Part shown: piece after piece, positions 2,366 through 25,384 of the stretch
Numbering within the stretch: the stretch's first letter is position 1
How the letters are laid out: every line of letters begins with the position of its first letter
DNA from: a virus
IMG/VR virus record: IMGVR_UViG_3300035181_000505
Span: 1-32,993 of that record
Reading direction: 5' to 3' (one strand)
DNA length: 32,993 nt
The notes under the pieces: model-generated
The model's input: only the letters and a program-made list of their open reading frames with translations
The model's database searches: none
Told to the model about the DNA's origin: nothing
Program-made: the position numbers and the translations under genes

Positions 2366-2370
2366 TAACC

Positions 2371-2400: not shown

Positions 2401-2420
2401 CTTTAACTTCTGGAAACATC

Positions 2421-2921: not shown

Positions 2922-2985
2922 TTTAAAGGTAATAAGTAGGAGGCTGGAGTAATTCGGCCCCCTTTATTGTACTTAGGAGAATTTC

Positions 2986-3132
2986 ATGTTCGAAATCCAA
3001 GAATACCCAAAGATGCTGTACCTCAACGGCGATGCGACCAAACAAAAAACGGTCAATTCTGTTGAAGAGGAAGAGGCGTCAGGTCCCGACTGGCTCGATG
3101 CCCCGGTGGACCCTGTCGCCGATACCGAGTAG
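2986..3132 (+). CDS. Small acidic hypothetical protein (48 aa)
   Basis: ATG 2986 has a strong ribosome site (TAGGAGA, 7 bases upstream). The 48-residue product is acidic, with a run EEEEA near residue 27 and C-terminal DPVADTE. It is too short for most gene callers. It lies between a head-region gene and a structured RNA element. I do not recognise it. Similar short acidic proteins occur in head regions of podoviruses, but function is unknown. Confidence 0.65.
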   Translation: MFEIQEYPKMLYLNGDATKQKTVNSVEEEEASGPDWLDAPVDPVADTE

Positions 3133-3135
3133 TAT

Positions 3136-3200
3136 CTCCGTGGCGCTCTGACTCTCGGTCCCCTGTATATATAGCCCGGACCCCCTAGAGCGCCTCGGAG
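3136..3200 (+). promoter_or_regulatory. Long intergenic stem-loop
   Basis: CTCCGTGGCGCTCT (3136-3149) and AGAGCGCCTCGGAG (3187-3200) are inverted repeats matching at 13 of 14 positions. Inside the loop, GGTCC (3157-3161) pairs with GGACC (3178-3182). No T run follows, so it does not look like an intrinsic terminator. An RNase III-type processing site or translation control of the gene at 3220 is possible. Confidence 0.6.
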
Positions 3201-3219
3201 AGCCTATCAGGAACACGAA

Positions 3220-4787: not shown

Positions 4788-6208
4788 CTGAATTGGTCGG
4801 ATTTATTGGTAGTTCACATGTTGATCGGTCTTTACCGTTCGATGCACAGCGCTGTATCAATCTGTTTCCATCAGTGGCGGCCAGTGGCACTGCCAAATCT
4901 GCTGCCAAACTGGTGTCTTGTCCCGGATTGAAGCTTTGGGCGAATAAATCCAGTGAGAACCAGCAAGGTGTTCGTGGGATTTTGGTATTTGATGATAATT
5001 CCATGTTCGTGGTCATGTCAACCAAAGTTTATCGGTATGACGTCGGTGGTACAGCAATATTGATTGGTACTGTACCATTTGGTACTGGCCCGGTGGCTAT
5101 GGAAACCAATGGGATCACTATTTTCGCCAGTGCAGGTTCTATCGCTTGGGTCATCAACCCAGCGGCCAATACTCTCACCACTTACACTGATATTTCTTTC
5201 ACTGGTGCTACTGGTATTGGATTTATTAATGGTCAGTATGTGTTCAATCAGCCCGGCACATCCAAGTTCTGGGTTATGGATGCTTATTCCACAATTTTGA
5301 ATCCTCTAAATTTCGCTACTGCTGAGGGTTCCCCGGATGGTTTGGTCACGCTGGTGGTTAATCATCAAGAAGTTTGGTTGTTTGGTCAGTCTACTATTGA
5401 AGTGTGGACCGGTGATGGTACAGCTGGATTCGGTTACAGTCGTGTGCCCGGTGTGTTTATCGAGCAGGGCTGTGTGGCCCCCTATAGTGCTACGAAAATC
5501 GTCGATTCGATCTTCTGGCTCTCGTCCAATAGAAATGGTGAGGGGCTAGTATTCCGCACTATGGGATACGGAATCAAGCAAATCAGTAATTCGTCATTAG
5601 AACAAGCGATCGCAAAATATGCAGTCATTTCTGATGCAGTTGCATATACTTACCAGCAAGAAGGTCATTTCTTTTATGTTTTATCCTTCCCGACTCAAGG
5701 TGTCACGTGGGTTTACGACACCGTTACAGACACATGGCACCAAAGGGCATGGAAAAAAGAAAATGGTCAGTTCGATCGTCATCGGGGAAATTGTCATGGC
5801 TTCTTTAACCGGAAAAACATTGTCGGTGATTGGCAAAATGGTAAGTTATATGTGCTGGATACCACCACGTTCGATGATGACGGAACGCCGTTAGTTCGGC
5901 TTCGTTCTTCGCCTTACATTGCAGCACAAAACACCCGAATTCCTCACATGTCCATTCAATTCGACATGGAAGTGGGTATTGGCCTGCAAGAAGGTCAGGG
6001 GTCTGATCCTATGGCTATGCTTCGCTGGTCAGATGATGGTGGCAAGACTTGGAGCAATCAGCGGTCACGGAAGATCGGTAAGACCGGTAAGTATGAGAGT
6101 CGTGTGCGGTTCACCCGCCTAGGTCAATCCCGGACCCGTGTTTACGAGCTGTCAATATCGGACCCTATCTCGGTCACGATTTATGCGGCGAATATGAATG
6201 TCGAATAA
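4784..6208 (+). CDS. Packaged-DNA stabilisation / tail hub protein, P22 gp10-like
   Basis: The 474-residue product resembles P22 gp10 along its length. Landmarks are an N-terminal CINLFPSVAASG segment with PGLKLW, the YVFNQPGTSKFWVMDA region, SPDGLVTLVVNHQEVWLFG followed by STIEVWTG, and the late WSDDGGKTWSNQRSR segment. Many short beta strands are consistent with a beta-propeller fold. gp10 caps the gp4 ring, holds DNA in the head and carries the needle and tailspikes. It starts with an ATGA overlap on the gp4-like gene. No separate tail needle (gp26-like) gene was recognised. Confidence 0.85.
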   Translation: MTELVGFIGSSHVDRSLPFDAQRCINLFPSVAASGTAKSAAKLVSCPGLKLWANKSSENQQGVRGILVFDDNSMFVVMSTKVYRYDVGGTAILIGTVPFGTGPVAMETNGITIFASAGSIAWVINPAANTLTTYTDISFTGATGIGFINGQYVFNQPGTSKFWVMDAYSTILNPLNFATAEGSPDGLVTLVVNHQEVWLFGQSTIEVWTGDGTAGFGYSRVPGVFIEQGCVAPYSATKIVDSIFWLSSNRNGEGLVFRTMGYGIKQISNSSLEQAIAKYAVISDAVAYTYQQEGHFFYVLSFPTQGVTWVYDTVTDTWHQRAWKKENGQFDRHRGNCHGFFNRKNIVGDWQNGKLYVLDTTTFDDDGTPLVRLRSSPYIAAQNTRIPHMSIQFDMEVGIGLQEGQGSDPMAMLRWSDDGGKTWSNQRSRKIGKTGKYESRVRFTRLGQSRTRVYELSISDPISVTIYAANMNVE

Positions 6209-7021: not shown

Positions 7022-7476
7022 TGGATATTCAATTAGAAAGTTTTGAAGAGCGGTTAGAGGAGTTGCAGACTCTTCTGCCCCTCCATTACCGGGAATTGGC
7101 GCTAAACCAAGACAAGGTACCACTGTCTCCTCTTTACGATATTTATATTCAGCGTGAACGTCTGGGCCAGTTAATTTTTATGACAATGCGCCAAGATAGT
7201 GAACTGGTTGGGTACTTCATCGGGTTTATTGCTCCCGGCCTCCATTATAGTACGTGCCTCACTTGCACGATGGATATTTTTTTCATTCGGCCAGATATCC
7301 GAGGATCAGGTTTACCGGGACTTAAATTGTTCCGAGCCTTGGAAAAAGAATTAAAACAGCGGGGAGTACATCGCTGGTTCGTTGGGTCAAAAGCTAAAGC
7401 TGATGCCAGCGCGTTATTTGAGCGATTAGACTTTGAAAAAGTCGAAGTCTATTACTCTAAATGGATTGGGGATTGA
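7021..7476 (+). CDS. GNAT-family N-acetyltransferase
   Basis: The 151-residue protein has the GNAT layout: strands at about 62-70 (LVGYFIGFI) and 82-89, then the acetyl-CoA pyrophosphate loop RGSGLPG at 94-100, a following helix (KLFRALEKELKQRG) and a C-terminal ALFERLDFEK motif. It would transfer an acetyl group from acetyl-CoA to an amine on a protein or small molecule; the target is unknown. Its ATG shares bases with the stop of the hydroxylase gene, making a two-enzyme cassette set between tail and ejection genes. Sequence does not tell whether both act on the same target. Confidence 0.85.
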   Translation: MDIQLESFEERLEELQTLLPLHYRELALNQDKVPLSPLYDIYIQRERLGQLIFMTMRQDSELVGYFIGFIAPGLHYSTCLTCTMDIFFIRPDIRGSGLPGLKLFRALEKELKQRGVHRWFVGSKAKADASALFERLDFEKVEVYYSKWIGD

Positions 7477-7477
7477 T

Positions 7478-8911
7478 ATGGTAGCAGCAGCAGTAATTGG
7501 ATCAGCAGTAGTTGGTGGCATGGTGTCGAGCGCCTCCGCACGGCAAGCTACATCTGCTCAAACAGACGCAGCAAATAAGGCATCAGCGGCACAAATTACT
7601 GGTGCTCGTGAAGCAGGTGCAGCACTTGAAACAGCATCTACCACTGCTACCGGTCAGCAAAAGACAGGTTTAACTGCTGCAACCGCGATCAAAAACGCGG
7701 GTATCGATACCGCTCAAGAGCAGAACCGTACTGGAATCGTACGGGGAGCAGAAGCTCAGATCATTGAGGCTCAAGAGGCACAACGTACTCTTGATGCTGC
7801 TATTGCTACTGGCTCTCAACAACAGATTGACGCCGCGAAAGCAGCATTGGTAACGAAAACTGATTATGCTAATCAAGCGATTGCGGCTGCTCAAGCTGGT
7901 GCTGCTCAAGCTGGTCGAATAGCGGACAGTCATGCAGCAGATGCGAATTCCACAGTACGAGGATTGTTGGGCGAGACTCGTGCTGATCTTGACCCATATA
8001 TGACTGCTGGTAAGAATGCCACGCAAATGATGGATACAGGTAACCAACCCGGGGGAGAGTTCCATAACTTCACCAATACAGATTTCGTCAAGGACCCCGG
8101 CTATCAATTCCGGATGGACGAGGGGTTGGGTGGTGTCAGTAATAGCGCTGCCGCTCGAGGTGGGTTGTTATCTGGTAACACATTGAAAGCACTGACTCAG
8201 TACGGCCAGAATTATGCGTCTAATGAATTTGATAAGGCATATGGCCGTTATACCACTGACCAAAATAACCGCTTTTCGCGTTTGAGTAGCTTGGCTGATC
8301 GTGGACTCACAGCAACAGGCACTATGGCCAACGCCAATAACCAAGCCGGTCAAACGATGTCGAACAATACGATGCAAGCTGCGACTATCGGTGGAAATGC
8401 CGCTTCGAGTGCAGGTCAATTTGCTGGTGCTACCCTCAACAATCTCGGTACTTACGCCGGTGATACGGGTAAGGAAATCGGTAATATCCAAGGCACCGCT
8501 ACTCTAAATACTGGCAAAACTCGGGCCGATACTTTGAATGGTATCGGTACTGTGGCCAATAATACATATAGGGATGTAGCTTCGAATGAAGTAGCTGGTA
8601 CAAATGCTCATACTGCCGCAAATGCTGATTACGCCAGCAACTCAGCCAATATCGATGCTAACAGCACCTTGGCGATCGGCAACGCTCGGGCGGCTGCGGC
8701 TACTGGTGTAGGCACGGCTACTGCTACTGGTGCACTCAACATAGGTAACGCCGCAGCCGCAGGTGCTACCACGCAAGGTCAGATTTTCAACAATGCTCTC
8801 GGTAAAGCAACTAATGCCTTTACCAGCTTCCAAGCTCTTAATGGTCCGGGAGCCGGGACCACACCATATATTGATGCCAATGGCCAAATGGTATACCCCA
8901 AGAAGACTTAA
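7478..8911 (+). CDS. Internal virion / DNA ejection protein, P22 gp7-like position
   Basis: I start at ATG 7478, just after the GNAT stop; the longer frame at 7433 would overlap that gene. The 477-residue product begins with a hydrophobic Ala/Val/Gly segment (AAAVIGSAVVGGMV), then long Ala/Gln/Thr helices. A characteristic block near 175-265 includes DPYMTAGKNA, KDPGYQFRMDEGLGGV, SAAARGGLLSG and ALTQYGQNYASNEF. That block is widely found in podovirus DNA-transfer proteins. The C-terminal half is Asn/Ala/Thr-rich repeats. Such proteins leave the head with the DNA and help it cross the envelope. It is the first of three such genes. Confidence 0.8.
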   Translation: MVAAAVIGSAVVGGMVSSASARQATSAQTDAANKASAAQITGAREAGAALETASTTATGQQKTGLTAATAIKNAGIDTAQEQNRTGIVRGAEAQIIEAQEAQRTLDAAIATGSQQQIDAAKAALVTKTDYANQAIAAAQAGAAQAGRIADSHAADANSTVRGLLGETRADLDPYMTAGKNATQMMDTGNQPGGEFHNFTNTDFVKDPGYQFRMDEGLGGVSNSAAARGGLLSGNTLKALTQYGQNYASNEFDKAYGRYTTDQNNRFSRLSSLADRGLTATGTMANANNQAGQTMSNNTMQAATIGGNAASSAGQFAGATLNNLGTYAGDTGKEIGNIQGTATLNTGKTRADTLNGIGTVANNTYRDVASNEVAGTNAHTAANADYASNSANIDANSTLAIGNARAAAATGVGTATATGALNIGNAAAAGATTQGQIFNNALGKATNAFTSFQALNGPGAGTTPYIDANGQMVYPKKT

Positions 8912-8920
8912 GGACTGAAC

Positions 8921-10372
8921 ATGCCCGAACTCGATCCACGATTAATTCTTGCTAATGGGCAAGATACTATGGGCCTGAACAGTGTTGGTCAGGTCTACGA
9001 CGACGCCTCTAAGATTCAATTGCATCGTGAGACAATGCAAAAAGCTCAGCAAGCGAATGCCGATCAGGTAGCCACACGTGAAGCATATCGTCGTGCAACC
9101 AAAGCAGATGGTAGCATCGATCAAGGTATTTTACTTTCATCGTTGGCACAGTTGAATGCCGGTAGTGTCATCCCTAGCATTCAAAAAGCAAACCTCGAGA
9201 CTCGTAAAACTCAAGGTGAAATTGACTACAAAGATGCTGAAACCAAGGCCAAAGTAACCGACACACTCTACAATGGATTAAAGCAAGCGGACAATTCTAT
9301 CGCTTCTCTGCTGGCGAAATCAGATGTTAATGAACTGGATGTGTACGGGGAAGTCGGTCGGCTTGTGAAAATAGGAGCATTTGACGCGCAAGCGCAGCAT
9401 GTAGGTAAATCTCCTGACGATTTTGCCAGAGACATGCTTTCTACTTTGCCTGTCGGAAATCCAGAGGCTCTGCGCAACTGGCTCACACAGGCCGGTGCTC
9501 GGACCATGGATGCCACGAAACGTATTGAAATGTCAGTACCGAAATATGATGAACAGAATCGTGGTGGCACGATTAACCAAGGCACGGTCAATCAATGGAT
9601 CGGTCAACGTACAGAGGGTGCGGGTCCTGCGAATAATATCGTGCCAACTGCAGACCCAAATGCGGTTCTCAAATCCAAGACTGATTATGGTATTGCCGGT
9701 ATTGTTGATAATCGGGCACGTGAAACAAATGATATCAACCGTGAAGCGTCTCAAACCCAAATTGTTGATGGTCCGAATGGTCCGAATCTTGTCAATAAGT
9801 CCACGGGTCTTGCTCGGCCTGTGGCTACGACTGATGGTTCGCCTCTTCTAAACAAGGATTCGGTTATTGCCAAGAACGCTCGATTAGCTGATACTCTAAC
9901 CGGACAAATTGGGCAAGCCCGTACATTGCTGAAAAAAGCTACGGGGTCAGGCGCGGGAAAGATGATAGACACGGCTGGTAACTTCGTCGGTTTGTCCACT
10001 GATGGCGCAGATGCTGCTGCTCAATTGGAAACTTTGAGCGGATGGATGACATCCAACGTTCCCCGTTTCGAAGGACCACAGTCTGATAAGGACACGGGCA
10101 CATACCAAATCATGGCGGCTCGTGTTGGTGACCGTTCAGTTCCCGTATCCCAACGTTCGGCTGCTTTAGATATAGTTGAGCAACTCATGGCTAAATATAG
10201 TGGGAAGCCCGGCACAGCCCCTGCGGGTATGGTAGTACCGGCACCCCCGCCAGCGGGGTCGGGACCCATGCTGGCGCGGCCTCAGCGGGGCGGTAGCTAT
10301 CAGGGTAGGACTCCTATCGGATCGCGCCCCGGACAGCAGCCTCCGAGCATTGATTCTTTCTTCAAGTCATAA
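8921..10372 (+). CDS. Internal virion / DNA ejection protein, P22 gp20-like position
   Basis: The 483-residue protein is mostly helical and polar, rich in Gln, Lys, Asp and Ala, with no transmembrane helix. Its N-terminal 110 residues look coiled (QLHRETMQKAQQANADQVAT). The C-terminal 60 residues are Pro/Gly-rich and basic (RGGSYQGRTPIGSRPGQQ), likely disordered. Position in the middle of three ejection-type genes suggests a gp20-like role in forming the trans-envelope DNA channel. The family match is by architecture and order, not by an unmistakable motif. ATG follows an AGGA ribosome site. Confidence 0.7.
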   Translation: MPELDPRLILANGQDTMGLNSVGQVYDDASKIQLHRETMQKAQQANADQVATREAYRRATKADGSIDQGILLSSLAQLNAGSVIPSIQKANLETRKTQGEIDYKDAETKAKVTDTLYNGLKQADNSIASLLAKSDVNELDVYGEVGRLVKIGAFDAQAQHVGKSPDDFARDMLSTLPVGNPEALRNWLTQAGARTMDATKRIEMSVPKYDEQNRGGTINQGTVNQWIGQRTEGAGPANNIVPTADPNAVLKSKTDYGIAGIVDNRARETNDINREASQTQIVDGPNGPNLVNKSTGLARPVATTDGSPLLNKDSVIAKNARLADTLTGQIGQARTLLKKATGSGAGKMIDTAGNFVGLSTDGADAAAQLETLSGWMTSNVPRFEGPQSDKDTGTYQIMAARVGDRSVPVSQRSAALDIVEQLMAKYSGKPGTAPAGMVVPAPPPAGSGPMLARPQRGGSYQGRTPIGSRPGQQPPSIDSFFKS

Positions 10373-10373
10373 C

Positions 10374-12128
10374 ATGCCAAACATCCAATTTGATGTCGAA
10401 GGTGCTCGTCAGCATTATAGTGACGACCAAATCGCGGATGCGCTCGCTCAAAAGGCAAACTTTGACGCAATAGGTGCTCGGTCGGCTGGTTACAAAAGTA
10501 TCGACATCATTAACCGGTTGGTTGCCCCTAAACAAACGTCATCCCCTACCCCGGTTCTTCAAGATAACATCGGTAAGATGGACGATAATGGCGCAATTGA
10601 CGCGGCAGTTGTTGGTGCCGGTCGAACGGTAGATCGTATTGGTAAAGGCATGAAACAGCTGTGGTATGGTATCACCAATAATGACAAAGCCGCTGCTGAC
10701 TTGAAGATGGAAGCGGACGAGGATAACAAGCAGTATGCTAAGTTACAAGAACAACATCCGGTCACCACAGCTATCGGAGAATCTCTACCTTCGATGGCCA
10801 TACCTATCGGCGCACCTGCTACTACCCTCGCGACTGCTGGCCGGATGGTTGCTGCATCTGCAATACCTGCTGCTTTGGAGTATGGAAGCACGGAAGAACG
10901 GACCAAAAATGCCACCGGCGCTGCAACGGGAGCAGTGGTCGGTGGTGTATTGGTACCTAAGGCGGCTGGTGCTGCATATCAAGCTGGAAAGAACACACTT
11001 CGTTCAATGGTTGGCGACGTGACCCCAGAGGCGATTGCTTTAGCCCAAAAAGCAGAGGCGGCAGGAATCAAAGTCAATGCTGCTCAACTCGGGGACAGCA
11101 AATTCCTCAAGACATTGGCGTCAGCCTTGGAGCAGATGCCCTTCACTGGTGCAGCCCAAACAGCTTCCAAGCAACGAGGCGACTTCACTCGTGCCGTGTC
11201 CAAGACATTTGGCGATGACGTCGATAAGATCACTCCGGAAGTTTATGCCCGGAACCGTACTCGTCTCGGCCAATCATTCGATGACTTGTCGATGCGTAAC
11301 ACACTGAATCTGGACCGCACCACATTAGATCGTCTAGACAATACACTCAATGAGGCACGGCAATTTGGTGATGACGGAACCATTCGTGCCGTTGAAAATC
11401 TCTATAATCGCGTTATTCGTCAATCAGAGGCGACAGCTAAAGAGGTACCATCAGCCTTTGAGGGAATTCCGGCTCACAGGACATTTGTTGAAATCCCCGG
11501 TGCGGCTTATTCGTCGATGGATAAATCCATGGGCGAAATCATCAAAGCTGGTGGTGAAAAAGGCAATTACGTTAAACAGATGCAGCTGGCACTTCGCGAA
11601 GCGATGGATCGTTCAATCAGTCCTGCCGATAAAGAGACGTGGAATCAGACTCGCACTCAATATAAAAATTTGAAAGCGATTCGGGACGTTGTATCTCGTG
11701 ATGCCGCTGACGGTAACGTACCCCCAACAACGCTGATGAATGCTTTGAACAGTACAGAGGCGGGCAAGGAGGCAATGGCCATGGGGAACCGCGGTGGATT
11801 AGGTGATTTGGGACGTATCGGACGCCAATTCGTCCGGGACCAAGTACCGAACTCTGGTACTGCTCAACGTGCAATCGCCATGGGTCTGATTGGTGGTGGT
11901 GGATATGCTTTCGGGGCAGAACCTTCACAGATCGCTGGAATGATGGCCGGAGGCGCGACTGCTGGCCGTGTACTGAATAAAGTGTTGAATAATCCAAATG
12001 TCGTCGCTTCTCTCGGCAAACAAGGCATGACAGTAGCGGACCTTGTTAAATTACCGCCGCCTACCATCGCTCGAATCCTTGGTGGCATCACTGGTGTAAC
12101 AATCGCTGAATCTAAAAACGGGAATTAA
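10374..12128 (+). CDS. Internal virion / DNA ejection protein, P22 gp16-like position
   Basis: I start at ATG 10374, two bases past the previous stop; a TTG frame at 10350 lies inside the upstream gene. The 584-residue product opens MPNIQFDVEGARQHYSDD, an N-terminal form (F-D-V-x-G-A-R, then an acidic helix) common in large podovirus ejection proteins. A hydrophobic, membrane-active-looking stretch lies near 125-180, where GESLPSMAIPIGAPATTLAT is followed by AAIPA-type sequence. A second lies near the C-terminus (IAMGLIGGGGYAFG, AGMMAGGATAG). It probably inserts into or crosses the inner membrane during DNA entry. No lytic transglycosylase motif was recognised. Confidence 0.75.
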   Translation: MPNIQFDVEGARQHYSDDQIADALAQKANFDAIGARSAGYKSIDIINRLVAPKQTSSPTPVLQDNIGKMDDNGAIDAAVVGAGRTVDRIGKGMKQLWYGITNNDKAAADLKMEADEDNKQYAKLQEQHPVTTAIGESLPSMAIPIGAPATTLATAGRMVAASAIPAALEYGSTEERTKNATGAATGAVVGGVLVPKAAGAAYQAGKNTLRSMVGDVTPEAIALAQKAEAAGIKVNAAQLGDSKFLKTLASALEQMPFTGAAQTASKQRGDFTRAVSKTFGDDVDKITPEVYARNRTRLGQSFDDLSMRNTLNLDRTTLDRLDNTLNEARQFGDDGTIRAVENLYNRVIRQSEATAKEVPSAFEGIPAHRTFVEIPGAAYSSMDKSMGEIIKAGGEKGNYVKQMQLALREAMDRSISPADKETWNQTRTQYKNLKAIRDVVSRDAADGNVPPTTLMNALNSTEAGKEAMAMGNRGGLGDLGRIGRQFVRDQVPNSGTAQRAIAMGLIGGGGYAFGAEPSQIAGMMAGGATAGRVLNKVLNNPNVVASLGKQGMTVADLVKLPPPTIARILGGITGVTIAESKNGN

Positions 12129-12131
12129 AAT

Positions 12132-14585
12132 ATGGCAAGCATTCTACCTACTGGTAAACAGGTTTATCTTGATAACGCTGGTGTACCACTCGTTGGGGGT
12201 AAAGTATATACTTATGCCGCAGGTACATCCACACTAAAAGCGACATATCAAGATCAGGCGGGTTTGATCCCTAATGCGAATCCAGTTGTTTTGAACACTC
12301 GCGGTGAAGCATTGATTTTTTGGTCAGGTGCTTATAAGATCGTTCTCAAGGATTCACTAGACAACATTATTTGGTCTGTGGACAACGTGGTCGAAGGGGG
12401 GGATGCTAGTATCATTACAGGTTCTACCGGCTCTTTGGCTCTTCCTACCGGAACTACTGCTCAACGGGATGTCAGTCCTAGTCCCGGATATCTACGGTTC
12501 AATAACGAACTAGTACAACTTGAATGCTACTATCCTTCTGGGTGGAAAGGTATCCAAGAAATGTTGGTATCAGGAACCAACATCAAAACTGTGGGTGGTG
12601 TGACCTTGTTGGGGGCTGGGGATATCCCAACTCCTGATACAGTTCGTATAGATGTCGCGTCCACTGGAACCGTTGACTTGACTGTTGCAGGACCTGTAGC
12701 AACACGCAACATTAATATTACTGGCGTCACTACGATCACTGGATTTATAATCACAACAGGTAAGTTATACTTCGTTCGTTTTGCAGGTGCGTTGACTTTG
12801 ACTGATTCGGCGAACCTCGTCACACAACGTGGAGCTAATATTATCACGGGAGCGGGTGATACTTGTATATTGCGGGCCACTGCCGCGAATACGGTCGAAA
12901 TCTTGAATTACACCGTTGCGATCGGTAATTCATTTATTTCTGGCCAAGGCGGCCAAACCATCACTGGCAATATCACTCTCACAGCCTTCAGCAGCGCAGC
13001 GATCACCGTCACCCCTACTGCTCCCGGTTCATATGTGACCCTTCCTGATGCGACAACTTGCTCTACTGCGGACAACCTCTTTTCCGTCTATAACGCAGGC
13101 GACTACGACTACGGCGTAAAAGACTCCGCAGGCACACAGCTAGGCTGGGTACGCGCACGTACAGGAGCAATGATTGGACTGTCCGACAAATCCACAGCAG
13201 CGGGTATCTGGGCTTACTACGGACTTGAGAAAACAGGCATCACAGCCTCTTACATCAACCCCACGCTGGCGAACATGGGTAACACCATTCGGCGTATTGC
13301 GCTGGATGCAACCCGCACTTGCTTCCTGTTTGGCGGTACGGACTGCTATGCGATTGTGTATGACGCATCGACGCAGACGTGGGGCAGTGCTACGTTGGTG
13401 AGGGCATCAATTGCGAGTGGTGCATTCTTGGGTGTGTTGAGTGCGACAAATCAGGTGTTGGTTTGTTCCAATGATTCCACCACTGGAATGTCCACAGTTA
13501 CCCTGACCATCAGCGGTACTACGGTAACGGTGAATGCACCCATAAGTACAACCTTAGCGGGCAACTGGTCGTCATACGGACAGCTCATTCCGGTAAGCAC
13601 TTCATGGGTACTGAGCTATGGACGAGCCACGAACATCAGCGGCATCCGCGCCATATCCGTTGCAGGAACTGTTCCTACTGTTGGCGCTGAAACTGCTGTG
13701 GCTTCTAGTTTTGCGATTGGCGTAACACTGTTTGCATCTGGCGCTGTAGTGCGGACGCTCGGCTGGAATGGATCGACAACCATCAATTGCATCCCTTATA
13801 CGCTTTCGGCAGGTACTACCCTCACTGTTGGTACACAGGCAACAGCGGTGGCAACGTCGGCGCCCTTCCGCGCCTTCCTCAACGGCAACGGCAACATCGT
13901 CTGCCACTACATCAACACCACGCACTTCGCCACTGTATTTAAGCTGACGGGTACGGTGGAGGCGGCGAGTAGTGTGAGTTTGGGGACTGCTCCAACAAGC
14001 GTTATCACTCAGGCAGATTACGTGCAGGTAACAGCAAGTAAAACGCTGTTTGGTTATCACGCTGGCAGCACAACTTTTTACGCTAACTTGTTAACAGATA
14101 CAGCTGGCACGGCAACAGCAGGTACTGAATTTTCCCTAAATGGATTTTCTGCGGCTATCAACAGCCTCGCGGGACTTGTTTCCTCTGGAAACTCTGCTCG
14201 TATTTTATATGGGAATAACACGCAGCAAATACAAGCAACTTTCGACTGTTCAGGGGCATCCCCTACGTTGTCAAGCACGGTTTTAACCTTCTTTTCTTCT
14301 TTAATAGTAGCGTCAGTCACAGCGTCTGATGTCTATGGCATACGAGCACCAAGGTTGCAGTTTGCCGGAGCAACCGTAACTAACATACCCTCAAACAGTA
14401 CCGAGACACTTGCTACTGTAACTACGGCCAATTCAATAAGAGCTGTAGTTCCAATGATGATAGGTATATCCGCTGCATCTGGATCACCCAAGGGAGTCGT
14501 CGGCGCTGCAAATGAGTCTATCTTGGCAAATACAGTCAGCGGTACTAATGGATTCACCATCAACCGCATCGAGGCCGCAGCATGA
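12132..14585 (+). CDS. Large tail fibre / receptor-binding protein
   Basis: The 817-residue protein starts with an anchor domain (1-90: PLVGGKVYTYAAGTSTL, then a D-x-x-G, Asn-Pro and G-E-A-x-x-F pattern) shared with the fibre-like protein at 3220. Residues about 95-140 include a strand-turn region ending in PSGWKGI. Then come fibre beta repeats, and after about 330 repeated 45-60 residue modules rich in Thr/Ser/Gly with Trp and Tyr, suggesting a propeller or trimeric beta structure. Codons shift toward C- and G-ending forms from about 12950, which hints that the receptor-binding part came from elsewhere. No glycan-cleaving catalytic site is apparent. Confidence 0.8.
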   Translation: MASILPTGKQVYLDNAGVPLVGGKVYTYAAGTSTLKATYQDQAGLIPNANPVVLNTRGEALIFWSGAYKIVLKDSLDNIIWSVDNVVEGGDASIITGSTGSLALPTGTTAQRDVSPSPGYLRFNNELVQLECYYPSGWKGIQEMLVSGTNIKTVGGVTLLGAGDIPTPDTVRIDVASTGTVDLTVAGPVATRNINITGVTTITGFIITTGKLYFVRFAGALTLTDSANLVTQRGANIITGAGDTCILRATAANTVEILNYTVAIGNSFISGQGGQTITGNITLTAFSSAAITVTPTAPGSYVTLPDATTCSTADNLFSVYNAGDYDYGVKDSAGTQLGWVRARTGAMIGLSDKSTAAGIWAYYGLEKTGITASYINPTLANMGNTIRRIALDATRTCFLFGGTDCYAIVYDASTQTWGSATLVRASIASGAFLGVLSATNQVLVCSNDSTTGMSTVTLTISGTTVTVNAPISTTLAGNWSSYGQLIPVSTSWVLSYGRATNISGIRAISVAGTVPTVGAETAVASSFAIGVTLFASGAVVRTLGWNGSTTINCIPYTLSAGTTLTVGTQATAVATSAPFRAFLNGNGNIVCHYINTTHFATVFKLTGTVEAASSVSLGTAPTSVITQADYVQVTASKTLFGYHAGSTTFYANLLTDTAGTATAGTEFSLNGFSAAINSLAGLVSSGNSARILYGNNTQQIQATFDCSGASPTLSSTVLTFFSSLIVASVTASDVYGIRAPRLQFAGATVTNIPSNSTETLATVTTANSIRAVVPMMIGISAASGSPKGVVGAANESILANTVSGTNGFTINRIEAAA

Positions 14586-17205: not shown

Positions 17206-17234
17206 ATTATATCAGATAGTGGCGTCTTTGTCAA
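17206..17234 (-). promoter_or_regulatory. Perfect-consensus sigma-70 promoter
   Basis: Read on the minus strand, TTGACA (17234-17229), 17 bases, then TATAAT (17211-17206) followed by AGAG. Both hexamers and the spacing are exact consensus. It overlaps the 3' end of the PrimPol gene and would start a transcript about 15 bases before the AGGAG ribosome site of the YdjM-like gene (ATG 17184). Confidence 0.85.
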
Positions 17235-19791
17235 TCTCTATTCCTGCCGACTTCGGGAACTTGATGGACTTCCGTGCCTGATCGATGGACGACCATAAGT
17301 GCGGCAGCGCCTCCCGGCTCAGATCGTTTGCGTAAGTGGAACCCATCCACTTTTGGGATGGGCGGGTCTTCTTGAAACCGATGCCCCGGAGTATCTTCTG
17401 GAGTCGCATGACGTCCTGTTGGGTCTGTCGGGAGGTATCTATCTGGAGCAGTACCCCGAGAATCGTGTGCATCGCGCCCAACCGCACGTTAAAGTCCTCG
17501 GTAGGCTGGCCATTGATAAACCGGGGGACTGCGAAGAATAATTCGTTCGCGTAGCTGTCTGGGTCGGTGAGGGCATTGCGGATTTTGAGGAACCATGGCT
17601 CGGTATTCTCAATAGACATCTGGCGGTCGGCTTGTTCTTCCGCCACCATTTCGGTGGGAACCGTGTACCAATCTTCTCCACCTTCAAATGCCTCAACTGC
17701 CTCAGCCCATAGCTGGTCCCGGTCCTGTTTGAGTAGTGACGTCTTAACCAGCCCACTCTCACCTACGTGGCATGGCCAGAAGCGTCGTGCGCCCGTCAAA
17801 TCAGCGATATATGCCTGACCTACTTCATTCGTAGTGCCTGCAAAGACGCAAGTACGGGGGTAGGATTTGGCGTCACGTTCGTAACTCAAGCGGACGTCAT
17901 CAACGGTAGTAGTCAGAACCGCTTTCAAGGCTTCCATATCACCTTTTCGGACAGTCGCCAACTCTGACATTTCAACAATTAGTTTACCCGAAATCACGGC
18001 TACCATGTCCTTGTGCATTGTGCCGGTCCCAGTCATACCCCCGGAATACTCAGAGTAGAATTGCCCACCGAGCGCCCGGAGAGCCTGTGACTTGCCGATT
18101 CCTTGGATACCTTCGAAGATTAGCATGTGGTCAGCTTGGCATCCGGGTTCCATCGCCCGAGCCACGGCACTGATCAGCCATTTGCGACCAATAGCACGAG
18201 TATAAGCGGTGTCCTTCGTGCCCATGTAATGTGGCAACCACTCGTCCAAACGTTTGACACCATCCCAACGCATTTCCTTTAAGTGGACCCGGAGCGGGTT
18301 GACCCGGAATTCCTCGGCTAGATATTTAATCACAGCGGCAACGTGGAATTGCTTGACCCACGAATCGCCCATCGTGTGGAATTTTACCATCAGGTTGATT
18401 TCGTCAACGTCTGATACCCTCGGGCAATCAATGTCACCAATCTTCCCGGCACGGATACGGTGGTCGAAATCTGCAATCCAGAACATAGGGCAACTGCCCT
18501 CTTCCTGCATCGCTCGGGTCTGGTTGATCAGCCCGACCAAGTTACCCTTCTCATTGTTCTCGCCAATCGTCGCCTTCTGGAATCGGGCGCGTTCGGCCTT
18601 GATTAGGTCTTCCAGCAGCAGGACCCGGAGCCGGACTGCTTCTTTCTTGAGTCGCTTGATGATACCGCCCAACTGCTTACCAGTAGCACAGGCGGATTGC
18701 ACCAATTCAGCATCCATATCGGCTTGGTCGCCATCGCACCACGCTTTCAGTCGGTCATAGACTGTTTCCGGGTCTTTATATGTCGGGTCGATTTTCTCGC
18801 GAAATTCCTTCCAACGATACGCAGAACAACTGTCATGCAGACAACGATATACGGGGCGGTTATTAACCAGACCCACCATGGGAGATTGATGATTTTCATT
18901 GAATGGGCACTTTGAAATGATCCACTTCTGACCCTCGTTGCCGAACATCGGACGGGGACCGCTTGTAATGGTCTGCCCGCGATCGGCTAGCCATTTCACT
19001 ATGTCGGTGATATATTCCCCGGTCATGTCCCGGTATTCTTCACTCTTGGCATCCCGGAGTGGGCGGGCCACATTATCAATTTGCTCCCGTGTCAATAACT
19101 TTAACTCAGCGGGAATCTTTGTAATCATCGCTACTCGGTGCGGGCGCTCGTCAGTACTACTACCCTTGGCGCTTATCGTGCCGTACACCTTCCAAACCCG
19201 GCTCGAGTTGAACACGGTGACGTCTACTTTAACCCGGTCATCTGAGAAAATGGACGAGAGCATCTTCAAAGCACACTCGAAGTCGATTCGGGAAGCGTCA
19301 TCAGCGGGTTCGTCGACCTTATACATCACGTGGACGCCATTCCCGGAATCGGCCCGCACGGGTTCCGGCCAACCAATAGAAGTCAGCCAATCAGTAACAA
19401 CCTCTGCTTTGTCACGGGCTTCCAGCAATTCAGCATCTGAAGAGGATATCCCTGCAGGGCGTACCGGGTCGAAGTCCATTAGGAACCATTTACGGCGGAT
19501 GACATCGCTATCAGATGATGTCAAGAATGTACCGTATTCGAACCGATTCTGGCACCGGGCCAGCAAATCCGGGTTGATCGGGTTGACGGTGACGTAAATA
19601 GCTTGGTGCTTGCCGTTTTCCTTGGCTATCAGTGCGGCGGCGATGGCGGTGTCATTAAAGTATCCGCTAATAGTCCCCGCTTTGGTCTTGGGAATGCGTA
19701 CCTCGAATACGCCCCCCGGCTCTTGGATAAGGTCTAATGCGGCTTTTACCAGCATAGCTGGCTTTGTCTCTCTGTATTCTTCGAAATTCAT
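17212..19791 (-). CDS. PrimPol-helicase fusion (AEP primase, zinc motif, VapE-type AAA+ helicase)
   Basis: This 859-residue protein combines three parts. Residues about 1-210 form an archaeo-eukaryotic primase-like domain, with Asp106 and Asp108 (FLMDFDP), SGNGVH at 149-154 and Asp190. A zinc ribbon follows with Cys295, His301, Cys317 and Cys322. From about 500 comes a VapE/D5-type ATPase: WDGVKRL, Walker A GIQGIGKS (561-568), Walker B LIVEMSE (604-610), sensor AGTTNE (651-656) and the TGARRFWP arginine motif. It would prime and unwind phage DNA at the fork. Its ATG overlaps the nuclease stop (ATGA). It ends just before the promoter of the YdjM-like gene. Confidence 0.88.
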   Translation of the reverse strand: MNFEEYRETKPAMLVKAALDLIQEPGGVFEVRIPKTKAGTISGYFNDTAIAAALIAKENGKHQAIYVTVNPINPDLLARCQNRFEYGTFLTSSDSDVIRRKWFLMDFDPVRPAGISSSDAELLEARDKAEVVTDWLTSIGWPEPVRADSGNGVHVMYKVDEPADDASRIDFECALKMLSSIFSDDRVKVDVTVFNSSRVWKVYGTISAKGSSTDERPHRVAMITKIPAELKLLTREQIDNVARPLRDAKSEEYRDMTGEYITDIVKWLADRGQTITSGPRPMFGNEGQKWIISKCPFNENHQSPMVGLVNNRPVYRCLHDSCSAYRWKEFREKIDPTYKDPETVYDRLKAWCDGDQADMDAELVQSACATGKQLGGIIKRLKKEAVRLRVLLLEDLIKAERARFQKATIGENNEKGNLVGLINQTRAMQEEGSCPMFWIADFDHRIRAGKIGDIDCPRVSDVDEINLMVKFHTMGDSWVKQFHVAAVIKYLAEEFRVNPLRVHLKEMRWDGVKRLDEWLPHYMGTKDTAYTRAIGRKWLISAVARAMEPGCQADHMLIFEGIQGIGKSQALRALGGQFYSEYSGGMTGTGTMHKDMVAVISGKLIVEMSELATVRKGDMEALKAVLTTTVDDVRLSYERDAKSYPRTCVFAGTTNEVGQAYIADLTGARRFWPCHVGESGLVKTSLLKQDRDQLWAEAVEAFEGGEDWYTVPTEMVAEEQADRQMSIENTEPWFLKIRNALTDPDSYANELFFAVPRFINGQPTEDFNVRLGAMHTILGVLLQIDTSRQTQQDVMRLQKILRGIGFKKTRPSQKWMGSTYANDLSREALPHLWSSIDQARKSIKFPKSAGIEIDKDATI

Positions 19792-20219
19792 ATTGCAGTT
19801 TCTTTTCTGAGATAAGGGGGTAGCTGTTCAGCGATCAACTGGCGTTGGAATTGGATGTCACTCAGCGCTGAAATATCTGCATAGCAGGTTGCGTCGGGAA
19901 TTTCCTTATGATAACGACCGGGGATAACGAAGACCCGCTCGACGATACAGATCATGAAATGAATGGGCATGAAAGGCGCCCATCTGCGAATATACTGATG
20001 TTGGGATGCTTCCACCCCGATCTTGTTCCGGGGGTTGATATCCTTATCGATAGCCTTGATTTCCAACCACCCAACTCGAAAACCATCAGCAGGTATCACG
20101 TAATGCAAATCCGGGACCCCCGGTGAAACTTGGCGGTCCTCATGCCAAGTCATCATCCAGTGGTCCCGCATACGGGGTTCCAGATAATCCCGGAACTTCT
20201 GTTCAGGGAGCCTTGCCAC
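19788..20219 (-). CDS. VRR-NUC type PD-(D/E)XK nuclease
   Basis: The 143-residue protein carries a compact nuclease site: Gly34-x-Pro36-Asp37 (GVPDLHY) and Glu53-x-Lys55 in WLEIKA, with a QHQYIRRW helix near 72. VRR-NUC enzymes are structure-specific nucleases or Holliday-junction resolvases. In phages they cleave replication or recombination intermediates. It overlaps the 3' end of datZ by 17 bases and the PrimPol start by ATGA, so it is made with the Z module. How it discriminates 2-aminoadenine DNA from host DNA, if it does, is not visible. Confidence 0.82.
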   Translation of the reverse strand: MARLPEQKFRDYLEPRMRDHWMMTWHEDRQVSPGVPDLHYVIPADGFRVGWLEIKAIDKDINPRNKIGVEASQHQYIRRWAPFMPIHFMICIVERVFVIPGRYHKEIPDATCYADISALSDIQFQRQLIAEQLPPYLRKETAI

Positions 20220-20772
20220 CGTTTGCCTCGTAAGCGTAGAACATCAAATTGTCATGGATGTGGAAGTGTATATTATCTGACCATTCGAACTCTTTGATAG
20301 CCCAATTGATCTTCTTGATATACTGCTCTTCGAGTCCCTCCTGTGCATGGCGGGCAGTCAGGTCGACACCATGCAGGCGGATAAACCGGATACCGTCTGC
20401 AAGGTCACATAGTTTGATCAATGCGATAGTGGCGGGCGATGCAGGAATAGATAGTTCTTTCGGGGTCACTATTTCCTCCAGATCATCCAAGCTATCGATA
20501 TGTCGCTTAGTGTGTGTCGGGACGTCGCCGGTAAACGCTTCCGGGATATCATGCACCAGTGCAGCAGCACCAACAACGGTATGTGTGTCAAACGTGTTGA
20601 CGGGAGCAGTCTTCGCAATAGTCATCGCTAGCAGCGCGACATTTGCGGAGTGCTCAGCCAATGTTTGCTGACGCGTCGTGTCAATCATATGCCAGCGTTT
20701 CACGGCGTGGAGCCGCATTACTGTTTCTAAGGCGTGGCGCTCCTGCCCGTAAGCGAGAAATTCACTCAACAT
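20203..20772 (-). CDS. datZ: DatZ, HD-domain dATP triphosphohydrolase
   Basis: The 189-residue product has the HD-domain metal site: His41 (TLAEHSANVALLA), His74-Asp75 (AALVHDIPEAFTGDV) and Asp126 in LCDLADGIRF, with Arg26-Trp27-His28 near the N-terminus, as in YfbR/DatZ proteins. DatZ removes the triphosphate from dATP, giving deoxyadenosine, so adenine is kept out of phage DNA while dZTP is spared. In known Z-phages it sits with purZ and mazZ. Here it overlaps mazZ by 11 bases and the nuclease by 17. A 5'-deoxynucleotidase role like host YfbR would be the alternative, but the context makes DatZ far more likely. Confidence 0.9.
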   Translation of the reverse strand: MLSEFLAYGQERHALETVMRLHAVKRWHMIDTTRQQTLAEHSANVALLAMTIAKTAPVNTFDTHTVVGAAALVHDIPEAFTGDVPTHTKRHIDSLDDLEEIVTPKELSIPASPATIALIKLCDLADGIRFIRLHGVDLTARHAQEGLEEQYIKKINWAIKEFEWSDNIHFHIHDNLMFYAYEANGGKAP

Positions 20773-21040
20773 GACTTGCTACCCCCAGATCGTTGATTGT
20801 CCATTTACGTTGATTATTGATCGCCATTTTACGGCGTATGGCTCCTTCGATGTCGAACATCTGCTTGGAGCCATAATCCAACAGCATGATCATGACGTCA
20901 GCATATTCCTCTTCGGACTGCGCCTCGACCAGTTCCCCGATTTCAGAGAACAACTTCATGAACATACTGGAGGGGGTGCGATTCGGGAATAGCTTATCGG
21001 CATGGACCTGAACTTCATAGGCAAAATTATCGATGCTCAT
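20762..21040 (-). CDS. mazZ: MazZ, MazG-like dGTP pyrophosphohydrolase
   Basis: The 92-residue all-helical protein shows the MazG metal-binding pattern Glu33-x-x-Glu36 in LFSEIGELVEA and Glu45-x-x-Asp48 in EEYADVMIMLLD. It belongs to the short MazG-like (DUF550-type) group. In the Z pathway MazZ converts dGTP to dGMP and pyrophosphate, supplying the substrate of PurZ and lowering competing dNTPs. Its ATG shares ATGA with the purZ stop and its end overlaps datZ, so the three are tightly coupled. The assignment to MazZ rather than a general house-cleaning MazG rests mainly on this context. Confidence 0.87.
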   Translation of the reverse strand: MSIDNFAYEVQVHADKLFPNRTPSSMFMKLFSEIGELVEAQSEEEYADVMIMLLDYGSKQMFDIEGAIRRKMAINNQRKWTINDLGVASHVE

Positions 21041-22107
21041 TTCAGTCCTCTAACTTCCCGGCGTGGGATCACGTTACTGTCATCCGGCCCGTAACCAAAC
21101 CACTGAACTTTGGGTGGATTAAAGTATCCCTTACCACCTTCTTCAATCAGCCGCAACACAGTATCGAAATCAGCAGGGTCCTGCAGGTAGTTAACGAAAT
21201 TGAGGAACACCCGAGTATCCCAATAGCCGCCACAATGGAACATCGCCTCTTCCATCTGTTTGCGGGAGAATGAGAATATACGGCGTTTCAGCTTGGTCAC
21301 TGTCGTGAGTTCCGGGGCGACGCCGGGGAATCCATCCCAATCGAGTTCAACCTGATCAGGATAGCAGGGACCGGATGACCCGTCACGATTGTTCACTCGG
21401 ATAGGGAAAGTACGGCACGCGCCAACAACCTTGACATAACTGGCCCAACGATATGGGAGTCCACAATCAGCAGCGATCTGCCAAGGAGTAACATCACGAC
21501 TTGTCGTGTAGGGATATTGTCCGTGATACATTGAGAGGCTGAATCCTTGAGCACCTTCAATGAGAACGTTTTCGGCTTGTTCGAGTGCGGCACGGTAGTC
21601 GTCCTCAGATACGACATATTTCCCAAGTGGTTCAAGCCAGAATCGTTCCTTGGCGATGTTTGGACCATCTGGATGACGTTGAATGCGCTCGATCGCAGCA
21701 GCCCCACAACCCTTGGTGGTAGACCCAATCTTGGTCATACCCCAATCTACTTCTTGCTTGGCGTGGTAATTCTCAACCACTGCCGCTTGGGGGTGAATCA
21801 TAATTCGCTTGTCTTTGAGCCGTCCGTGATTCTGAGCAATCTCATTCAAAAGTGTGTCGTGGTGGATAAGTGCGCCCGGCCCGATCAAAATATTCTTCAC
21901 TGTGTCCGAAGACACCGCCCCGGTGGGCAATTGCTGTGTCATCACGTGCATTTCACGCTCTTTGTCAATGTAGGTGTGCCCCGCATTGGTGGCGAACGAA
22001 CAAACTACGGTATCATAATTCTCCCGCTTGGCTAGATATCCGGCGATCAGTCCTTTCCCTGTGCTTCCATACTGGAAGTCCATAACCATGTCGACTTTAT
22101 GGGTCAT
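21037..22107 (-). CDS. purZ: PurZ, 2-aminoadenylosuccinate synthetase
   Basis: I choose ATG 22107 because it follows AAGGA at proper distance and the dpoZ stop; ATG 22128 would lie inside dpoZ. The 356-residue enzyme is an adenylosuccinate synthetase homologue with P-loop FQYGSTGKG (11-19). The PurA catalytic Asp of GDEGKGK is Ser15 here. NAGHT (41-45), EGAQG (184-188), YPYTTSRDVTPW (198-209) and TVTKLKRR (269-276) follow in PurA order. PurZ couples dGMP and aspartate, using ATP or GTP energy, to make the dSMP precursor; host PurB then yields dZMP. It is flanked by dpoZ and mazZ with 1-4 base junctions. This is not host PurA. Confidence 0.96.
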   Translation of the reverse strand: MTHKVDMVMDFQYGSTGKGLIAGYLAKRENYDTVVCSFATNAGHTYIDKEREMHVMTQQLPTGAVSSDTVKNILIGPGALIHHDTLLNEIAQNHGRLKDKRIMIHPQAAVVENYHAKQEVDWGMTKIGSTTKGCGAAAIERIQRHPDGPNIAKERFWLEPLGKYVVSEDDYRAALEQAENVLIEGAQGFSLSMYHGQYPYTTSRDVTPWQIAADCGLPYRWASYVKVVGACRTFPIRVNNRDGSSGPCYPDQVELDWDGFPGVAPELTTVTKLKRRIFSFSRKQMEEAMFHCGGYWDTRVFLNFVNYLQDPADFDTVLRLIEEGGKGYFNPPKVQWFGYGPDDSNVIPRREVRGLK

Positions 22108-22108
22108 A

Positions 22109-23941
22109 TTAGTCCTTACTTGCTTCATACCAATTACTACCGAATTTAGCGGAGGCGGTTATTGGTACCCGCATCCGCACTACACTACTCTCGGAATTGA
22201 AATCAGTGTAAACCTTAACTAATCGCTGCTTGACTTCTTCATCCGGGAGCATCGAGATACCGGCTTCGTCGTGACAAGACATCATCAGTCTCGCTGGAAG
22301 CCCGCCCGCCCGAATTTCGTCATCAATAGCGATTAGTCCTAACTTGTGGAGGTCGGCGGCATATGCTTGGTACAGCAGACCCGCTGCCTTATGCGCCCCC
22401 ATGCCCCTCGGGAACCTCAGTCTCCTGCCCATGGCTGTTTTGACAAACCCTGTCTCCTTCGCAATGACCTCGGCTTGCTTCATAAATACCTTGACACCGG
22501 GCAGCGTCTTGTGGTACATATCGAATATATCGGTCGCTTCTTGTCCCGGCACGTACGCCATCTTGCCCTTGTACTCCTTGATGGTATAGGGCATGTTCAT
22601 CATGAATGCCAACTTACCAGCCCCGGCCCCAAAGGATAATCCCAGATTGATCTGCTTCGTGTTTGGAGCACCGGCATGGGTGGCATTACGAGGGATACCC
22701 GTCATATCACTGACGATCTGGTGGTAATCCATGCTCGGGTTATCATTATATGCCTGAATCACATCAGGGATGTTTTGAAGGTGAGCACCGCAACGGAAGT
22801 CTACCTGTGAGTAATCGGCACAAAGCCATTCTTCCCCGGCATCGGGTAGGAACATGGCTCGGAGGATTGCAGCATTAGCTTTGTCACGTTTTGTAATCTG
22901 CTGTAACGCCGGGTCTGTAGATGATAAACGTCCGGTGACAGTCCCCGCATCTGCATCGTTACGTGTTTGATTGAAGGAGGTATGTACGTACCCATCCCCA
23001 TCAGCACTTCCAATAACATGACCTCGGATGAAGGTGTCCCGTAACTTGATGGTCTTGCGAAGAGCCTGTATTTTCTTAGCCAATGGATGCTTGATTTCCC
23101 GCATGACGTTTTGGTCAAGCGACGGGCCTTTGCCCCCTTTGGTAGGTCCAACCAACGTACCATCGATGAGACGCCATTGGAATTTGCTGATCGGCTCTGG
23201 CTTGAAGAAAGCCCGGACTTGCGGTGTACTGTTGACATTGAATTTACCTCCTGCAATTTCGTTGATTTCGGACTGTAACTGCTCTTCCTTGACATCTAGA
23301 TCGGGGATTGCTGCGTGGGCGGCTTCCAGATCGACCCGGACTCCGCCCCAAGACATATCGGCCAAGACAGGGAGCAGACGCATTTCAAGGTCAAGCACCC
23401 GTTCCAACTTTTGTTCGGTGATCTGGATAGCTTGGGTGCGATAAATAGCAAGGGCATCAGAAGCGTCAGAGGCACCGTACGGGGCCACTATAGCTGCAGG
23501 GACCTCTCCTAGTCTCCGGAGTACCTCGGTGGTACTGCTCCACCCCATCGCCGCCCGGATAGCCTCCAGATGCTCTAGCTTCTGGGACACGACCCCCCGA
23601 TAACCCGCAATAGAGGCCAAGTCATAGGTCAGGTGGTGTTCGTCAATGAGGCACTCGGCAACCATGGTACAATACCATTGGACGGAGCGTGGGTCTATTT
23701 TGAAGTGTCTCGTGCACTGGTAGTCAAATTGAGCGTTCTGCGCCACGACCGAGCGGTTACGTAGAGTATCCCGGAGCCAATCAGCAACACGAGGAGTCTC
23801 ACGAACATCCCAATACCAACTGCTATTCCCGTGAGCAACAGCAATACCAAATACACCAAAATCTGGTGACCAATACTGAAGACCTGTCGTTTCATAATCC
23901 AGTCCTATTGTTTCACCAGCGGGTATATTTGGGAATGTCAT
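22109..23941 (-). CDS. dpoZ: DpoZ, family A DNA polymerase with 3'-5' exonuclease
   Basis: The 610-residue enzyme starts at ATG 23941; the longer frame would read through a terminator. Exonuclease motifs are Asp15/Glu17 (LDYETTG), Asn69/Asp73 and Tyr155-x3-Asp159. Polymerase motifs are TGRLSSTDPALQQI (336-349), motif A DYSQVDFR (376-383), motif B around Lys429 (KQINLGLSFG) and motif C HDE (557-559). No 5'-3' exonuclease domain. DpoZ enzymes co-occur with PurZ and prefer dZTP over dATP. Motif B departs from family A: Ala425 where Arg is usual, Leu433 for Phe and Phe437 for Tyr. There is no ribosome site before the ATG. Confidence 0.92.
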   Translation of the reverse strand: MTFPNIPAGETIGLDYETTGLQYWSPDFGVFGIAVAHGNSSWYWDVRETPRVADWLRDTLRNRSVVAQNAQFDYQCTRHFKIDPRSVQWYCTMVAECLIDEHHLTYDLASIAGYRGVVSQKLEHLEAIRAAMGWSSTTEVLRRLGEVPAAIVAPYGASDASDALAIYRTQAIQITEQKLERVLDLEMRLLPVLADMSWGGVRVDLEAAHAAIPDLDVKEEQLQSEINEIAGGKFNVNSTPQVRAFFKPEPISKFQWRLIDGTLVGPTKGGKGPSLDQNVMREIKHPLAKKIQALRKTIKLRDTFIRGHVIGSADGDGYVHTSFNQTRNDADAGTVTGRLSSTDPALQQITKRDKANAAILRAMFLPDAGEEWLCADYSQVDFRCGAHLQNIPDVIQAYNDNPSMDYHQIVSDMTGIPRNATHAGAPNTKQINLGLSFGAGAGKLAFMMNMPYTIKEYKGKMAYVPGQEATDIFDMYHKTLPGVKVFMKQAEVIAKETGFVKTAMGRRLRFPRGMGAHKAAGLLYQAYAADLHKLGLIAIDDEIRAGGLPARLMMSCHDEAGISMLPDEEVKQRLVKVYTDFNSESSVVRMRVPITASAKFGSNWYEASKD

Positions 23942-24045: not shown

Positions 24046-24831
24046 TTAAATTTCGCCGCGATCAGAGCCGCCAGCGTCGGCGGCAGGGGCCGCACTTGCG
24101 TGGTCAGCTACGACCATACCGGCACGGAAGGACTCATAGAGGCGCTCGGCTTCTTTGTAGACCTTTTCCGGTGGGAATCCTGCGGGTTGGACCACGAAGT
24201 TCTTAAACTTCTGGCCTTTCTTGTTCTCGTCGGTAAACGAGGACAACTTATAAACACGGGCGAAGCGATCACCGCCAGCGATCTGAATCATGGCATTCCA
24301 TTTGCGGCTGACCTTGCTCTTGGTCTTGGCCATAGAAATCACGATCTGTTCGCAAACGCCATCGGGGGTGATACGCAGACCATAATGGACGGGGGTGTCC
24401 ACCACTTCCACGATGTTGCCACCTTTGGAGGTAGTGCCAGCCAATTGCGGGTCATTACCAATCACGAGGTCGCGCTTCTCATTGGCCTGTTCCAGAGTGG
24501 GGAACGAACCGTGGAAACCACCACCGCTGTCCTGATCTTGCCACACGAGGTATTCCAACTGGAAATATACCGGGACAAAGTAGGCAACGTCGCCAATGAC
24601 CTCTTGAGTCACGCTGTTAAATAGCTGTCCGTCGCGGGCATCGGGGTCGAGTTCCTTGATGGGGCTGAGTGCCTGAACAATTTCCAGACGGGGGAGGACC
24701 ATATCGGAAGATTTAACTTCCTCAGAGCCACGGGCTGTGTCCTGCTTGATATAGCTTGGGACTACTGATTGCGCAAAGGCCAAATCGGATGATTGTGCGA
24801 CTGCGACTTCTGTCTTCTTACTGGTAGCCAT
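24046..24831 (-). CDS. Putative ssDNA-binding protein
   Basis: I start at ATG 24831, preceded by AGAGGAAA; the longer frame from 24876 runs through a terminator. The 261-residue protein is beta-rich with MVLPRLEIVQALSP near the start and PVYFQLEYLVWQ in the middle. It has a Lys-rich centre (KTKSKVSRKWNAM) and an acidic flexible tail ending GGSDRGEI. This layout, and the place before the DNA polymerase, matches phage proteins thought to bind single-stranded DNA. No classical OB signature is unmistakable, so the function is inferred. Hairpin terminators on both sides suggest separate dosage control. Confidence 0.6.
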   Translation of the reverse strand: MATSKKTEVAVAQSSDLAFAQSVVPSYIKQDTARGSEEVKSSDMVLPRLEIVQALSPIKELDPDARDGQLFNSVTQEVIGDVAYFVPVYFQLEYLVWQDQDSGGGFHGSFPTLEQANEKRDLVIGNDPQLAGTTSKGGNIVEVVDTPVHYGLRITPDGVCEQIVISMAKTKSKVSRKWNAMIQIAGGDRFARVYKLSSFTDENKKGQKFKNFVVQPAGFPPEKVYKEAERLYESFRAGMVVADHASAAPAADAGGSDRGEI

Positions 24832-24856
24832 TTGAGATTTCCTCTGGTGCTGGTTG

Positions 24857-24892
24857 AAAAAGGTCCCGCTGTGCACCGTACAGGTAGGGACC
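24857..24892 (-). terminator. Intrinsic terminator before the ssDNA-binding gene
   Basis: GGTCCC (24892-24887) and GGGACC (24867-24862) form a six-base stem, with CTGT/ACAG able to pair in the loop, and five T follow (24861-24857). It lies between the genes at 24980 and 24831, leaving 25 bases before ATG 24831. Confidence 0.7.
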
Positions 24893-24979: not shown

Positions 24980-25384
24980 TTAGACTTTAACGATGCTGGC
25001 GCGGATAAACGGGGTCACTGACAGGAATTCGGGAGCCTCGACGCCATCAACGATCATGCGGCGGACGAGGGCTTTCATGGACGAAGCGTTATAGGACTCA
25101 CTGATCATTTCATCGTACCCACAATCGCGCAGCCATTGCATAGCCGCATCTTTTTGCCCGGCTTTGGTTGAACAGTACAAGTCCGACGCTAATTGTATCC
25201 GGCCCAAACCCTCGAATGTCGCATTCTTGACTTCGAGAGCATCCATCAACTCGGGAATACGCTTGAGGCGCAGATCGTCGAGTTCCTGATTGATACCTTT
25301 CAGGGTTTCCTCGATCGCTTCTTTGCGCTCTTGGGTTTCTTTCATCTGGGACACTAGTCCCTTAAGATCACTCAGATCAGGCAT
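24980..25384 (-). CDS. Coiled-coil hypothetical protein
   Basis: The 134-residue protein has an N-terminal coiled coil (about 8-45: SQMKETQERKEAIEETLKGI and following). Next comes an ELMDALEVKNATFEGLGRIQ block and a WLRDCGYDEMI segment with MKALVRRM. This layout, a charged helix followed by a small mixed domain, is common among unassigned phage proteins encoded near recombination or replication genes, but I cannot give it a function. ATG follows AATAGGA. Its gene is followed by an intrinsic terminator-like hairpin before the ssDNA-binding gene. Confidence 0.7.
   Translation of the reverse strand: MPDLSDLKGLVSQMKETQERKEAIEETLKGINQELDDLRLKRIPELMDALEVKNATFEGLGRIQLASDLYCSTKAGQKDAAMQWLRDCGYDEMISESYNASSMKALVRRMIVDGVEAPEFLSVTPFIRASIVKV

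Follow-up and report, generated by a model that had tools for sequence, protein, structure and literature searches.

Ser15 in a predicted phage PurZ and the surrounding Z-cluster genes of an uncultivated podovirus-like phage

An open reading frame (ORF) on a 32,993-base IMG/VR fragment, here called the window, encodes a protein resembling adenylosuccinate synthetase (PurA) but with a serine in place of the catalytic aspartate. This raises the question of whether the gene encodes PurZ, the phage enzyme of 2-aminoadenine (Z) synthesis, and how far the serine accounts for its choice of substrate. Our answer, which we hold with a probability of about 94%, is that the locus probably encodes a functional PurZ; the phage, uncultivated and podovirus-like, would carry a complete Z-cluster and replace A by Z in its DNA. 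The sequence, the family to which it belongs, its fold, the conserved residues, and the synteny are documented below, whereas we infer the enzyme activities and Z-DNA itself from homology.

The purZ gene and its family

A preliminary description of the locus had placed the gene at 21037-22107, which is correct, but had left the strand unstated: The gene lies on the minus strand, with its ATG at 22107 and a TGA ending at 21037.

21037..22107, minus strand: purZ, succino-amino-deoxyadenylate synthase, 356 aa (NF038379, phrog_1211, PDB 6fko, Foldseek, Ser15 alignment)
22063..22065, minus strand: Ser15 codon AGC, in the GSTGKG loop (sequence; invariant in 37/37 phage sequences)

The encoded protein begins MTHKVDMVMDFQYGSTGKGL. 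We prefer the start at 22107 because an AAGGA motif lies around 6 bases upstream and because relatives of the protein start at the equivalent site, with M[A/T/P]H. A longer ORF from an ATG at 22128 was rejected, as it begins inside the end of dpoZ, has a poorer ribosome site, and is unmatched by relatives.

The identification as PurZ made in the preliminary description was borne out by family models, best structural matches, and fold. NCBIfam model NF038379 (PurZ) scores the ORF at 306.1 bits, above its cut-off of 300 by a margin of only 6 bits, and the protein matches phrog_1211 of PHROG, annotated as 2-aminooxy adenylosuccinate synthetase. By contrast, PurA equivalog models score far under their own cut-offs (115.6 against 395.55 for the TIGR00184 purA model), and a TIGR00184 search of the window gave partial, sub-cut-off matches only. 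The best PDB sequence matches are the PurZ proteins of phiVC8 (6fko; 254 bits, E=1.4e-74) and cyanophage S-2L (213 bits). Structure prediction, which had been proposed as a check, gave an AlphaFold model (pLDDT 82.9, weak at residues 191-202) that folds closest not to PurA but to PurZ, with 7odx and 6fko as the top Foldseek matches (TMq 0.86-0.88, against 0.69-0.77 for PurA). In a maximum-likelihood tree, the window protein groups with PurZ in a clade of 27 rows (99/98) from which PurZ0 and cellular PurA are separate, and is nested in a ten-row environmental clade (100/100). The ORF therefore belongs to the well-characterised PurZ family and is an ordinary member of it.

Among the reference isolates that we aligned, the PurZ of Acinetobacter phage SH-Ab 15497 shows the highest identity to the window protein (46%). 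The phiVC8 enzyme (NC_027118 p27; 44%) shares its fold, GSTGKG loop, and pocket residues, and that of S-2L (PDB 7odx; 40%) has an equivalent serine, Ser23, and the dGMP pocket. Actinophage PurZ0 (phages Wayne and Ghobes) likewise carries Ser in place of Asp13 but differs by its GSEAKG loop, an Asp at the nucleotide-donor position, an identity of only 29-31%, and other partner genes.

Ser15 and the dGMP pocket

The loop of the window protein reads DFQYGSTGKGL, and translation and alignment confirm what had been proposed for it: Ser15 replaces the catalytic aspartate of PurA, aligning with Asp14 of the E. coli enzyme when Met1 is counted (Asp13 in the literature). Serine stands at this position in 33/33 PurZ and 4/4 PurZ0 sequences of our alignment, compared to Asp in E. 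coli PurA. Since this residue is invariant across all 37 phage sequences and contig L002 encodes a protein 100% identical to the window PurZ, chance or sequencing error behind Ser15 can be excluded. A published survey reports Ser in 147/147 (100%) phage PurZ/PurZ0 sequences and 99% conservation of Asp13 within the PurA group; in four PurZ-like sequences from archaea it found Ser or Gly (PMC12884076). The aligned and the surveyed sequences thus support the earlier reading of the exchange as a known PurZ change; Ser15 is a fixed, published PurZ signature and nothing unusual among PurZ proteins. That the other PurA landmarks remain, as had also been claimed, holds for NAGHT (residues 41-45) and EGAQG (184-188), which are intact, but only in part for the Thr/Arg motif, which reads TTVTKLKRR at 268-276 compared to GATTGRRRR in E. 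coli PurA and keeps the last two Arg alone. This motif had moreover been called C-terminal, but it lies about three quarters along the 356-aa protein.

We mapped the residues of the protein onto 7odx and 6fm1, with residue roles taken from the study of the S-2L PurZ structure (PMC8342488). Residues that form the dGMP pocket and the ATP site in S-2L correspond to Y13, G14, S15, N41, A42, T130, Q187, V238, R144, N303, F304, N306, and P341; S15, N41, A42, T130, R144, Q187, and V238 are conserved as the dGMP pocket with its deoxyribose-gating Val. In the S-2L structure, Y21-S23 adjoin the guanine 2-amino group, and S23 is the equivalent of Ser15 in the window. The S23 hydroxyl lies 3.7 Å from the 2-amino group, beyond hydrogen-bond range, though its polarity may contribute (PMC8342488). 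The same study assigns deoxy selectivity to V241, the adjacent A242-W250 insertion, and a displaced R303 equivalent whose contact is lost; the window protein has V238 as the V241 equivalent and part of the insertion. The earlier proposal that loss of the Asp admits the 2-amino group is therefore plausible but oversimplified in view of this 3.7 Å gap, V241, the insertion, and the displaced Arg, and Ser15 would account for the substrate choice of PurZ in part.

At the nucleotide-donor position, the window protein has N306, as in phiVC8, rather than the Asp of PurA and PurZ0, and its donor is therefore likely to be ATP or dATP. The text of PMC12884076 gives ATP as the preferred donor for PurZ0 and GTP for PurZ, seemingly the opposite of what its own introduction and the S-2L paper say.

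The Z-cluster and competing explanations

The purZ gene lies within a run of genes on the same strand:

22109..23941, minus strand: dpoZ, family A DNA polymerase with 3'-5' exonuclease, 610 aa (NF038380; exonuclease and clade residues)
20762..21040, minus strand: mazZ, MazZ-1 (S-2L) type MazG-like (d)GTP pyrophosphohydrolase, 92 aa (S-2L MazZ alignment)
20203..20772, minus strand: datZ, HD-domain dATP triphosphohydrolase, 189 aa (phrog_7076, E=3.9e-23; S-2L DatZ residues)
19788..20219, minus strand: small nuclease/helicase-annotated gene of the same run (phrog_2165)
17212..19791, minus strand: VapE-type primase-helicase, replication module (Pfam PF05272, 228 bits)

DpoZ scores 862.9 bits on NF038380 (cut-off 500) and shares with phiVC8, by alignment, the D/E/D of the exonuclease and the L, F, and G of the DpoZ clade (clade residue positions from PMC8599892); its start was set at the Met that aligns with relatives, within a longer ORF call that begins with TTG at 24040. 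Aligned to its S-2L counterpart, MazZ conserves E33, E36, E45, D48, I51, D55, K71, N75, and W80 and retains the MazZ-1 signature (E35, E38, E50, D53, I56, and D60 of S-2L MazZ); it has no Pfam match above cut-off, with PF04447 (dATP-dGTP_PPHyd) matching weakly below it. DatZ keeps all metal and phosphate ligands of the S-2L enzyme (R19, H34, H66, D67, E70, D75, K81, K116, and D119; residues from PMC8065100) as well as W20, while at its residues 29 and 87 the base-contacting I22 and P79 of S-2L are replaced by Met and His, the same pair as in Bm1. Proteins of the Pam3 gp34-like (PF23977) and gp33-like (PF23984) families are encoded near dpoZ at 24046-24876 and 24980-25384 and are kept near dpoZ in related contigs and in phiVC8.

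With datZ and mazZ adjacent to purZ and a DpoZ polymerase present, the window holds the components of a Z-cluster. The purZ and mazZ genes overlap by ATGA, and the overlaps of a few bases among purZ, mazZ, and datZ suggest that the three are transcribed together. Related environmental contigs (L002-L012) show the same order, DpoZ-PurZ-MazZ-DatZ, as far as each of them extends, and purZ-datZ synteny is also seen in phiVC8, ZP6, and S-2L. The phiVC8 module resembles that of the window in having purZ, a small gene, and then datZ, together with dpoZ, but there dpoZ and purZ are separated by the primase gene, whereas in the window purZ directly follows dpoZ. A helicase- or nuclease-annotated gene is likewise placed after datZ in phiVC8 and ZP6. 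S-2L shares the purZ-mazZ-datZ order and the MazZ-1 type with the window but uses PrimPol without DpoZ (PMC8065100), and SH-Ab 15497 has a similar DpoZ but a far longer gene after purZ (1158 bp) than the window's mazZ. The MazZ-1 type (S-2L, Bm1, BUCT555) differs from the small gene that phiVC8 and ZP6 have in this position, which in phiVC8 is of a MazZ-2-like sequence type. Because its small gene is of the former type, unlike the phiVC8/ZP6 counterpart, the window cluster combines parts known from different groups of Z-phages.

By analogy to the characterised systems, MazZ would convert (d)GTP to (d)GMP, and PurZ would join dGMP and aspartate, using ATP or dATP, to form N6-succino-2-amino-dAMP (dSMP), with Ser15, which takes the place of the PurA Asp in this as in every phage PurZ, predicted to sit beside the guanine 2-amino group. 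Host enzymes would then turn dSMP into dZTP while DatZ removes dATP, and DpoZ, with its expected preference for dZTP, would polymerise Z instead of A.

Three other explanations deserve consideration. The Pfam Adenylsucc_synt match (98 bits) and a fold common to PurA and PurZ would also fit a phage PurA that uses IMP, in which the catalytic Asp has simply been lost, and which raises or spoils the supply of adenine; yet an aspartate that is 99% conserved in PurA (PMC12884076), PurA models far under their cut-offs where the PurZ model passes, the grouping with PurZ in the tree, and the dpoZ, mazZ, and datZ neighbours make this very improbable. We consider it just as improbable that the gene encodes the more PurA-like PurZ0 of actinophages: PurZ0 does carry Ser at this position, but the GSTGKG loop (GSEAKG in PurZ0), N306 instead of Asp, the placement in the tree, and partners DatZ and MazZ rather than DutZ or DmtZ (PMC12884076) all point to PurZ.

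Loss of a residue termed essential in PurA could finally be taken as a loss-of-function change in a decaying or inactive gene. This is equally improbable for an intact frame with conserved pocket residues, given that the serine is invariant in 37/37 homologues including those of phiVC8 and S-2L, whose enzymes are active in vitro. We therefore regard a functional PurZ as by far the best reading of the locus.

Virion genes and environmental relatives

The virion module of the window (209-6208 and 7433-14585) encodes proteins that match those of Rhodoferax phage P26218 and ctfPj964 (coat 70-71%); with the coat protein of P26218, a freshwater phage, identity is 71%. Neither of these two phages has purZ; in its stead, both encode a homologue of thymidylate synthase and an HD protein, along with a sub-threshold 5-hmdU-kinase-like match. 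We suggest tentatively, at slightly less than even odds, that the Z-cluster sits in a podovirus lineage, uncultivated and probably from freshwater, which has its virion genes in common with the purZ-less P26218 and ctfPj964; a pyrimidine-modification cassette would then have given way to a purine-replacement one within a single capsid lineage. Where PurZ relatives also have a coat match, the coat is 31-70% identical to that of the window and PurZ 61-69% in the same contigs, so that the capsid varies more than PurZ; a freshwater betaproteobacterial host is for this reason only a guess.

Scanning GTDB genomes with our alignment of PurZ sequences gave nine matches, none of them a close match that would assign a host to the window phage. 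Five of the nine are true PurA with GDEGKG, one (L050) ends before the loop, and three are PurZ-like contigs of metagenome bins (MAGs) with the GSTGKG loop. The latter (L046, L042, and L043) come from Gottesmanbacteria, Verrucomicrobia, and Gammaproteobacteria MAGs, have DpoZ- and DatZ-like genes nearby, and are probably phage contigs within these bins.

The locus adds to the PurZ family a clade with which none of the aligned cultivated members shares more than 46% identity, and to the known Z-DNA phages a full DpoZ-PurZ-MazZ-DatZ set. Its capsid, common to phages without purZ, could help to date the exchange of modules between different base-modification strategies.
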